Origin: an uncultured Flaviramulus sp. | GTDB taxonomy: Bacteria; Bacteroidota; Bacteroidia; Flavobacteriales; Flavobacteriaceae | Reading direction: 5' to 3' | Assembly (NCBI GenBank): GCA_947501105.1 | Contig: CANMUP010000002.1 | Span: 124,001-188,000, forward strand | DNA length: 64,000 nucleotides | Shown: positions 53,692 through 56,646 of the stretch, one piece after another | Layout: every line of letters begins with the position of its first letter | Numbering within the stretch: position 1 is the stretch's first letter | Notes under the pieces: model-generated | Told to the model about the DNA's origin: nothing | What the model saw: only the letters and a program-made list of their open reading frames with translations | Database searches by the model: none | Position numbers and translations under genes: made by a program

Positions 53692-55578
53692 TTAAATTTT
53701 AAAATAATCTATATAATTCTGTAAATCTTTATCGCCACGCCCTGATAAACTCACTACAATTACATCGTCGGGGTTAAAAGTTCTTTGTTCAAAAATGGCT
53801 AGTGCATGCGAACTTTCAATAGCTGGAATAATACCTTCTAATTCACATAATTTTAAACCAGCTTTCATAGCGTCATCATCGGTAATTGCCATAAATTCTG
53901 CACGCCCCGTTTTACATAAGTGTGCATGCATGGGGCCAACTCCAGGGTAATCTAAACCAGCCGAAATAGAATAAGGCTCGGTTATTTGTCCATCATCTGT
54001 TTGCATTAATAATGTTTTACAACCATGAATGATACCTTCTTTTCCTAAAACAGAAGTGGCCGCACTTTCACCAGAATCAACTCCTAAACCTGCTGCTTCT
54101 ACCGCAATGATTCCAACATTTTCTTCATGTAAATAATGATAATATGTTCCAGCAGCGTTACTTCCACCACCAATACAAGCTACCACATAATCAGGATTTT
54201 CTCTGCCTTCCTGCTCTTTTAACTGCCATTTAATTTCTTCTGAAATAACCGATTGAAATTTGGTTACCATATCAGGATATGGATGTGGACCAATGGCTGA
54301 ACCTATAATATAGTGCGTGTTTACAGGATTATTAATCCAATCTCTAATCGCTTCGTTAGTTGCATCTTTTAAAGTACGACTACCAGATAATGCAGGTACA
54401 ACTTTAGCTCCGAGCATTTTCATTCTTGCAACGTTTGGCGCTTGACGTGCTATATCAATTTCTCCCATATAGACAATACACTCTAACCCCATTAAGGCAC
54501 AAACTGTAGCTGTAGCCACACCATGTTGCCCTGCGCCAGTTTCGGCAATAATTCTAGTTTTACCTAAACGTTTGGCCATAAGGATTTGACCAATAGTATT
54601 ATTTATTTTATGAGCACCTGTATGATTTAAATCTTCGCGTTTTAAATAAATTTTGGTGTTATATTTTTCAGAAAGACGCTTTGCAAAATAAAGAGGAGAA
54701 GGACGACCTACATAATCTTTAAGTAATTGATCGAACTCTTTTTTAAAATCGGGTTCAGCCATTACTTTTAAATAGTTTTGGCGTAACTCTTCTACGTTTG
54801 GATAAAGCATTTCTGGTATAAAAGCACCTCCAAATTCACCATAATAGCCTTTTTTGTTTACGTTGTAATTCATGATGTTATTACTCAGTTTGTTTTTAAA
54901 TTCTTTTAAATCTTCAATTTTTTTTAACCCAGGTTCTATTTCAAATTTGCTATTTACATCAATAGCATAGCAGTATTTTGAAGCCTTACTTTTTTGGAAT
55001 GCTTTTATATCATCAATTTGATTAATGCCAATTCCACCACTTAAAAAGAAAGGTTTTGTTGATGGGTAGTTATTTAAAACATTCCAATCAAATGTATATC
55101 CGTTTCCACCAGGTAACTTACCTTTTGTGTCAAATAAATAATAGTCACAAACACTTTCATAAGGCTTTAAAACATCAAAATTGAATTTGTCCTTGATAGA
55201 AAAGACTTTGATGATTTCTAGCTTGTCATTGGGATACTTTTTTTCAAAGTCGTGGCAATCTGTTTTTTTTGAAGAGATTACCACGTCGCTTAGCTCCTCG
55301 TAATGACGTTTAAGTTTCAAGCAATACTCAGGTGATTCATTTCCGTGTAATTGAACCGCTTGTAAATTGTGTTTACTAACCTTTTCGAGAACAAAGTTTA
55401 ATTCTGCATCAACAAAAACCCCAGTTTTTTTAATGACTTTTGGTAATTCAGGTATACACTCAGTATCAAAGTTTCTGATAGATTTCTCATAAAATATAAA
55501 CCCAAGATAGTCTGGTTGCAATGCTGCAACTTGATTCATGTTATCTTGATATTTCATACCACAAACTTTCAGCTTCAT
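53692..55578 (-). CDS. trpFB: Fused phosphoribosylanthranilate isomerase - tryptophan synthase beta chain
   Basis: 628 residues in one open frame. Residues 1-235 are TrpF ((beta/alpha)8: [10 protein letters not shown] with catalytic Cys, [29 protein letters not shown] with catalytic Asp, [12 protein letters not shown]). Residues 236-628 are a full TrpB of 393 residues starting [16 protein letters not shown], with PLP Lys in HKINNT and GGGSNAAG for phosphate binding. TrpF carries about 20 extra residues (91-110) coming from a palindromic DNA element. There is no linker. Out-of-frame tandem stops lie just before the TrpB Met. A separate TrpF or TrpB is not seen in the window. Confidence 0.9.
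55249..55308 (-). repeat. REP-like palindromic element translated inside trpF
   Basis: On the minus strand it begins CGTCATTACGAGGAG, continues CTAAGCGACGTGGTAATCT, a run of A, and ends CAGATTGCCACGAC; the arms GACGTGGTAATCT and AGATTGCCACGAC pair. It is the GTCATTGCGAGGAG element known from many Bacteroidota intergenic regions. It encodes about residues 91-110 ([20 protein letters not shown]). A related copy is at 36848-36886. Confidence 0.8.
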
Positions 55579-56360
55579 CCTTCTAAAGTTTTAATGAACT
55601 CTGTCGCATTAGCTCCTGGATTATCAGTTTTCATAAAATTTTCTCCTATTAAAAAGCCTTGATAGCCGTATGGTTGTAATTCTTTGATAGATTCGATATT
55701 ACTTATGCCGCTTTCTGAGACTTTTACAAAGTCATCAGGAATAAGGCCACTTAAACTTTTACTAGTTTCTAAACTAACATCAAACGTTTTTAAATTTCTA
55801 TTATTTACACCTAGCATATCTAAACTTGGCATAATAGATTTGTGCAATTCTTCTTCGTTATGAACTTCTAAAAGCACATTTAAATTTAGACTTTGGGCAA
55901 ATTCAGAATACATTTTTATTTCTTCTCTTGAAAGAATTGCGGCAATTAATAAAATGACATCAGCACCATAAGCCTTTGCTTCTAACAATTGATATTCATC
56001 TATAATAAACTCTTTTCTTAATAATGGTAAATTACAACTTGCTCTTGCTGTTAATAAATCGTCTAGTGAACCTCCAAAGTATTTACCATCTGTTAAAACA
56101 GACATGCCACATACACCTGCGTTTTCATAGCCTTTTGCTACATCTTGAACGTTAAGTGTGTTATTAATTACTGATTTTGATGGTGAACGCCTTTTGTGTT
56201 CTGCAATAATTCCTGATTTGCTGTTTCGTAAGTTATTTGCAAGCGAAACTGTTGCTCTTTCAAATAAAACGGATTGTTCTAGTTGAGAAACAGGAATTAG
56301 ACTTTTTCTAAGTTCAACTTCCTTGCGTTTATCTAATGTTATTTTGTCTAAAATGTTCAT
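55575..56360 (-). CDS. trpC: Indole-3-glycerol phosphate synthase
   Basis: 261 residues. TIM barrel with [15 protein letters not shown] (catalytic Lys and Glu region), [50 protein letters not shown] and SESGISN. Stand-alone TrpC, not fused to TrpF as in enterics. Overlaps the trpF-trpB start by 4 bp. Confidence 0.96.
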
Positions 56361-56372
56361 TTTTATAATTTA

Positions 56373-56540
56373 TTTCTGTTCATTTTGTCTTGATACAAAA
56401 CGAACCAAAAAATCAATTCAATCTGAGGAAATTCCTGCGGAACACTCGCTTTCGGAATTACGTGCTTGAAGCTACGCTTCGCATCTCCATCCCTTCGCTC
56501 ATTATTTCTGCAGATTGATGATTCCGACCGTGTCGGAAAT
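56373..56540. repeat. Intergenic repeat family 3, copy b
   Basis: TTTCTGTTCATTTTGTCTTG, AAAACGAACC, then GCTTGAAGCTACGCTTCGCA and a closing TTCCGAC/GTCGGAA-type hairpin. It lies between trpD and trpC. Nothing else is recognisable up to the trpD stop at 56647. Confidence 0.8.
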
Positions 56541-56646
56541 AGGGTCTTTCATTTTTACTATTGTTCTTGTTAATCCCAATTGTTCTTTTCTGTTTAATTT
56601 TTAATTCTACAATCACTGTTAACAGAGAACTGTGACTGAAAACTTT

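Follow-up and report, generated by a model that had tools for sequence, protein, structure and literature searches.

How does a palindromic repeat come to be translated as part of a biosynthetic enzyme? The question is raised by a 64-kb stretch of flavobacterial DNA (the window, meaning the whole 64,000 nucleotides analysed), in which an original prediction placed such a repeat inside a TrpF domain. Our analysis gives us considerable confidence that the element is a dispersed, non-autonomous CGTC-type REP-like dimer inserted in trpF, and that the connection between helix α3 and strand β4 of this enzyme is a recurrent landing site in the Flavobacteriaceae.

A palindromic element in the reading frame of trpF

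The host gene is a fused trpF-trpB open reading frame of 628 aa on the minus strand (53692-55578), with Pfam PRAI (TrpF) and PALP (TrpB) domains. Its TrpF (phosphoribosylanthranilate isomerase) domain comprises residues 1-236 (54871-55578, minus strand; PRAI PF00697, 7.4e-28, and AlphaFold model), and the upstream gene at 55575-56360 (minus strand), which we take from its sequence to be trpC, overlaps the trpF start by 4 bases. The PRAI match falls into two stretches, the better of which begins at residue 119, where the insert ends. Within this intact ORF, GTCATTACGAGGAG lies in frame at 55294-55307 (minus strand), confirming that a palindromic repeat is translated in the TrpF domain. The repeat had been placed at 55249-55308 and residues 91-110; it is present there, but it extends further, to about 55224, and the whole element is a two-armed, CGTC-type dimer of 85 bp (55224-55308, minus strand; CGTCATTACGAGGAGCTAAGCGACGTGGTAATCTCTTCAAAAAAAACAGATTGCCACGACTTTGAAAAAAAGTATCCCAATGACA) that encodes residues 91-119 of the fusion protein. 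The left arm (CGTCATTACGAGGAGCTAAGCGACGTGGTAATCT, 55275-55308, minus strand) is the second-ranked match, at 51.8 bits, to the covariance model R1 of the arm, of which it is itself one of 24 training sequences, and the right arm (AGATTGCCACGACTTTG...CCCAATGACA, 55224-55261, minus strand) has an outer end unlike the TCGCAATGACG of other copies.

Several measures set this stretch apart. Allowing up to 2 mismatches, CGTCATTACGAGGAG has a single site in the 64-kb window and no match in 100 shuffles, and folding of the element stretch beats each of 200 shuffles both as RNA (z -4.17) and as DNA (z -3.57). The window dimer ends in ...TATCCCAATGACA, and a copy in the MetRS gene of the same genome, likewise 85 bp, ends in ...TCTCGCAATGACG; the alignment of the two spans 85 bp, with 82.6% identity over 86 columns, and the trpF copy is alignable also to other two-armed copies.

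From the YC of helix α3 to the KVFS of strand β4, the window protein has 39 residues, compared to 13 in the congeners G001 and G003; the same stretch has 20 residues in G002, whose trpF coordinates are those of Wocania ichthyoenteri Th78 (L040). Two solved TrpF structures (1dl3; 1lbm/1nsj) have about 12 residues at this connection, as counted from printed alignments, and the 55 parsed loops of 61 range from 11 to 52 residues, the six unparsed ones (L071, L077, L083, L086, L088 and L092) being short and outside the blastn tests described below. These lengths support the proposal that the segment is an insertion relative to relatives. A segment of equal length was not general among these TrpF proteins, and the similar residues of Mariniflexile maritimum (L037) and M. 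fucanivorans (L039) are encoded by the same element DNA rather than by unrelated DNA. The accompanying expectation that other TrpF proteins have only a short connection here holds for G001 and G003, but many relatives carry other palindromes at this place.

The AlphaFold model (m80a4469a64e2, 61 sequences) has a mean pLDDT of 89.0 over the TrpF domain, with values of 96-98 in 14 of its 24 ten-residue blocks. Those of the insert (91-100, 101-110 and 111-120) have values of 81, 55 and 65, and block 151-160 is as uncertain (56). The modelled helix at 83-102 extends into the insert, which is thus predicted to form a prolongation of α3 followed by a low-confidence loop.

Dispersed copies and other host proteins

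Within 2 mismatches, GTCATTGCGAGGAG occurs at 38 sites in the genome, compared to 4 for the reversed control pattern. The covariance model of the arm, with 150 of 774 candidates scored, gave 46 matches at E<=0.1 and 33 at E<1e-3, which puts at least 33 copies in this genome. The 24 aligned arms share a 5-bp stem (ATTRC/GYAAT) in which 98.3% of cells are paired and 17 cells are changed on both sides, values that were as high in none of 500 shuffles; two of the five measures, the counts of pairs changed on both sides and of further pair types, were not unusual (218 and 61 of 500 shuffles as high, respectively). The interior of this family, which we call A, has about 19 columns, and AT is invariant at the first two stem positions. 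Starts of the 24 arms, which were selected with a pattern containing GTC, are CGTC in 13, TGTC in 9 and AGTC and TATC in one each, the window having CGTC. Head-to-head dimers with both arms are found, for example, in L001, L003, L005, L018, L022, L027 and the window.

Most copies lie outside genes. Among the best 30 own-genome copies with loci, of the 46 matches, three are well inside ORFs of at least 120 aa and two more only at the upstream end of an ORF. Among 27 copies in other genomes, two lie within long ORFs, one in L183 (the TrpF gene of L042) and one in L185, two are at ORF starts (L178 and L190), and 23 have no open 100-aa ORF across the arm. In M. fucanivorans, eight equal-scoring arm copies follow one another in steps of 154 or 115 bases over about 1 kb (G077:C1:601540-602571), apparently as a tandem array.

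The proposed search of the genome for the element in other coding regions was successful: besides TrpF, it lies in MetRS (GLRHNEEQSDVVISSIEKIATTHKNESRNDALSW, in the frame used in TrpF) and, in the opposite orientation, in a protein that we take from its motifs to be GHMP-kinase-like (IDEITSSLAPRNDIS). Pfam finds MetRS domains in the former and no family in the latter. The MetRS linker stretch has 65 residues here, compared to 38 to 57 in 21 other parsed loci of 30 (8 of the 30 were unparsed, one of which, L164, was read separately), and its occupants differ, with A in this genome and C-like or B/C-like palindromes in L158 (CATTCCGCACTTGATACGGAATC) and L160 (CATTCTGAACTTGATTCAGAATC). At the GHMP-kinase-like site, where 19 of 20 loci were parsed, A is present here and in G002, a reversed B (GAGATGCTGAAACAAGCTGAACATGAC) is present in G001, and G003 has no recognised element; there is little length change among the congeners. 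In M. maritimum (L185), a palindrome dimer sits in a linker before PKAAILREKGSNSE of a protein that is presumably PurL-like.

Family A resembles the CGTC-tagged REPs in its CGTC or TGTC end, in AT as the first stem bases, in head-to-head dimers, in its mostly extragenic position and in that no dedicated transposase is known. It differs in its 5-bp stem and long interior, compared to the described stem of 8-9 bp and loop of 4-5 bases, to which two further families described below, B and C, conform by eye. The described REPs have an unpaired tag at one end, CGTC and often TGTC or CCTC. Family A is called CGTC-REP-like here, and not one of the four described families, since its stem and loop sizes fall outside the description. 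RAYT transposases were rejected as the mover: compared by eye over 14 genomes, Y1_Tnp matches do not track copy number, unlike what holds for RAYT-mobilised REPs. For example, M. fucanivorans (G077) has 53 copies and no Y1 match, G079 has no copies and 9 matches, and G003 has 7 copies and none.

Several palindrome families in one TrpF loop

Sixty named relatives were found through window TrpF peptides, one of which, DCHDFEKK, lies within the insert, so the sample leans towards relatives with similar inserts. Their loops are occupied by different palindromes. Family A (RHYEE..D.VI.S) is found in the window, L037, L038, L039, L041 and L042; family B (RHAELVSASH, CGTCATGCTGAACTTGTTTCAGCATCTCA) in L040, L045, L047, L048, L051, L054, L060, L064, L068 and L090, as well as within L041; and family C (CHSVLDTES) in L042. 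Two loops are composite: in L041 a B dimer follows the left arm of A, and L042 has A, then C, then a reversed B. The remaining loops have the short form or a sequence without family assignment; by eye, L079 has the palindrome GACAGGTTTTCAAAACCTGTC, and L080, L094 and L053 have TCGAGCGCAGTCGAGA-like palindromes.

When the 60 loci were scanned for motifs A, B and C, the loop (3,993 bp) contained 19 matches, from 16 loci, and the remaining trpC/F/B/A coding sequence (196,689 bp) contained none; a further 33 fell outside these genes. Reversed controls for motifs B, C and D gave none; the looser motif A, with 9 matches overall compared to 6 for its reversed control, is weak outside the loop, and its five in-loop matches have at most 1 mismatch each. 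Motif D had 40 matches outside the trp genes and 4 (two sites, both strands) in TrpF helix α8 of L042 and L056. There, at about 3613 and 3556 respectively, a CATTCCTGC..GCAGGAATC palindrome encodes SFLRRQES or SFLQKQES, with no length change relative to relatives, as if codons had been overwritten.

Family B is itself dispersed: matches within 3 mismatches occur in 15 of 18 genomes, with none for the reversed pattern, and its stem changes compensate by eye. At this threshold no match was found in the genomes of L048, L049 and L072, and the sole match in the L064 genome is the TrpF copy itself. The inserts of L048 and L064 would so not derive from a currently abundant family, because no other B copy was found in those genomes.

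We also compared loops to non-trp DNA with blastn, in which 20 of 55 parsed loops matched, compared to 5 of 219 control pieces of the same length. All 20 were among the 42 loops longer than 16 residues, with none among the other 13, and the best rows, to dispersed families, had 74-97% identity; two of the five matching controls are the motif D sites in α8. This first database included own-genome loci fetched for family A, so that A loops match partly by construction, and the comparison was repeated with the named trp loci and the window only. The same 20 of 55 loops matched, each to a locus not its own, compared to 4 of 219 controls. The 22 of 42 long loops that matched nothing may be decayed elements or ordinary loops. 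A less biased sample was drawn from 60 genomes, mostly one per genus with four from the window's genus, of which 43 had a match; the best 30 loci were read and 28 parsed (all but L223 and L236). Four of these 28 loops matched unrelated DNA, a lower occupancy than among the named loci, one being the window and one a 29-bp match. By eye, the loops of L216 and L225 in this sample have TCGAGCGCAGTCGAGA-like palindromes.

History of the loop and competing explanations

Loop states were placed on a tree of 63 tips built from TrpC, TrpF without the loop, TrpB and TrpA, one tip (L033) apparently being the same genome as another (L043). States were set by hand, and 26 'long' loops were left unassigned, including L053 despite its reversed B match. 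Separate pure clades number 5 for A and 10 for B. Sister species with support of 100 differ, A. pectinivorans (L048) having B and A. amylolyticus (L049) a short loop, and two further groups with support of 100 are similarly mixed, one with A. lectus (L064, B), A. miyuki (L072, short) and L058 (unassigned), the other with three Flavivirga loops (L041, A+B; L068, B; L070, 11 residues). The window and L040 are joined with a support of only 68. With 6-state labels, parsimony required 23 changes, compared to a mean of 30.6 and a minimum of 24 in 500 shuffles; a count below all shuffles shows that there is inheritance as well as turnover.

Among the copies compared, the M. fucanivorans (L039) and M. 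maritimum (L037) inserts come nearest to that of the window, identity to Mariniflexile being 87% over 85 bp. Loop DNA identity to the window (85.5% for L039, 81.2% for L037) is higher than that of the flanking trpF codons (73.8-77.3%). Identities of trpFn/trpFc to the window are 79.5/76.1 for L037 and 70.5/77.4 for L039; these do not stand out from the values seen inside the genus (73.3-82.8) and speak neither for nor against a local transfer of trpF between the window and Mariniflexile. The likeness of the loops could reflect common descent followed by many losses, transfer, or two separate arrivals of a single subtype. The insert may be shared with Mariniflexile by descent or transfer, in which case its presence would not require a fresh insertion in this species.

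Phase is uniform where junctions are not. Left junctions are L|RH in L040, L047 and L068, LK|RH in A loops, the window's included, and LKx|RH or LKx|CH in L045, L048, L051, L054, L060 and L090. These junctions differ by whole codons, yet the A and B left arms share one reading phase. We rejected the idea that stop codons force the frame: of 27 extragenic arms, 16 are open in the TrpF frame, compared to 11 to 22 for each of the five other frames, and in 11 two-armed extragenic copies (MetRS copy excluded) the TrpF frame is open in 2. Since stops do not force the phase, another cause is needed, likely selection for a polar peptide or a small number of founding events.

In the explanation that we favour, elements would arrive at random, presumably through a mobilising enzyme, insertions that break frame or fold would be lost, and connections such as α3-β4 would retain them through selection for frame and tolerance. 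The element is an insertion in trpF between α3 and β4 and gives the protein about 26 additional residues, mostly polar, which would lengthen α3 and then form a flexible loop, probably with no gain for TrpF. Alpha-to-beta connections of a TIM barrel lie on the face opposite the active site. Retention of the insert would be due to a length and frame that keep the ORF open, and to the position of the α3-β4 connection on the barrel face away from the active site. Across the Flavobacteriaceae, unrelated palindrome families would have entered this connection, been truncated, combined or been lost repeatedly.

A tentative further idea, to which we give a limited chance, is that such loops act as docking sites, families swapping through their common CGTCAT...ATGACG-like ends with the frame unbroken, so that L041, L042 and the GHMP-kinase-like site would be snapshots of the process.

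It is unlikely, in our estimate, that a single ancient insertion in a flavobacterial ancestor has since diverged and shortened, the families being divergence rather than arrivals, which is the view favoured for RPE-4/6/7 in the relevant part of PMC3767692. The inserts of the window, L037 and L039 are closer to one another than to the own-genome copies compared, the L038 insert has its nearest counterpart in L039, and the parsimony count implies some inheritance, all as such an ancestry would predict. However, the loops match different dispersed families in non-trp DNA, also when the loci fetched for the element are left aside, fully supported sister species differ between element and short form, and the left junctions differ by whole codons.

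Recruitment of the insert for a function, such as packing of TrpF on its TrpB fusion partner or hairpin-based regulation of trp mRNA, seems very improbable to us. In the coding strand the palindrome retains strong folding, and its DNA is more alike between the window and Mariniflexile than the flanking codons are; but the element is different or absent in close relatives, model confidence is low for the insert, and fusion and insert are uncoupled, since the fused proteins of G003/L043 and L049 have a short loop and L037 and L039 have the insert in an unfused protein. A naturally variable loop that resembles a repeat by chance would account for the variable loop length among relatives, but is refuted by the shuffles, the genome-wide copies and both blastn tests, given a high-scoring 85-bp copy of a genomic family with both arms, a 15-base end found in no shuffle of the window, and matches to unrelated DNA in 20 of 55 loops compared to 5 of 219 controls.

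The comparison to Rickettsia palindromic elements that was drawn at the outset proves apt. In both, a palindrome lies in frame in a protein gene with the ORF kept open, and RPE-4, -6 and -7 resemble the elements here as short dispersed ATGAC palindromes, in frame in housekeeping genes and solvent-exposed, with different groups near each other in orthologs; this likeness is one of description rather than of RPE sequence comparison. According to the pertinent passages of PMC3733652, RPE-4 and RPE-6 are CGTC-tagged REPs, and those of PMC3767692 place inserts with RPE-4, -6 or -7 in solvent-exposed protein parts. The hosts differ, being Flavobacteriaceae and not Rickettsiales, as do the host proteins, and here there are sister species without the insert, whereas the same passages of PMC3767692 report that every rickettsial ortholog has an insertion at the site in question. 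Where orthologs have different RPE groups at neighbouring positions, hotspots and one diverged insertion are considered there, the authors leaning to the latter and keeping hotspots open. The flavobacterial TrpF loop favours hotspots. A similar case in PMC3733652, as far as its recB passage goes, is that of Xanthomonas (X. campestris and X. oryzae), where different REPs occupy about the same site of one gene; there it concerns two species, here at least three families, one loop and several genera.

Intragenic CGTC and GTAG REPs are established in the parts of PMC3733652 concerned with them, which name coding palindromes in Rickettsia and others, such as Opitutus terrae and Thauera, and list Bacteroidetes among the phyla with CGTC repeats; its main text, as distinct from its additional files, does not contain 'flavobacteri'. 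The REP survey table of PMC12306157 lists two Flavobacterium genomes, and the accessible portion of that paper has no occurrence of 'intragenic' or 'within coding'. Among open-licence full texts we found no report of coding REPs in flavobacteria. Selfish or passive DNA would here offer a route to new peptide segments in biosynthetic and essential enzymes. Flavobacteria provide dozens of sequenced species with an occupied, differently occupied or empty loop in a simple, assayable enzyme, so that the question of hotspots versus one insert becomes directly testable.

Repeats also lie close to the junction of trpF and trpB. Fusion of the two (ORF >600 aa) is found in 9 of the 60 named loci (L043, L045, L047, L048, L049, L057, L064, L073 and L075) and, besides the window, in G001, G003, G016, G019 and G036. 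In the unfused relatives L040, L041, L042, L046, L051, L058 and L072, the spacer between trpF and trpB is a palindrome pair that also encodes the last TrpF residues (e.g. ..LSFRT), and the linker of the fused protein of G001 (L034) is apparently one leftover arm (ATTCCTGCCTTCGCAGGAATGACA, read IPAFAGMT). The element as the cause of the trpF-trpB fusion in the window was rejected, as none was seen at the fusion junction. Elsewhere in the window, the spacer between trpC and the next gene has a further repeat-like stretch at 56440-56550 (CCTGCGGAACACTCGCTTTCGG...).
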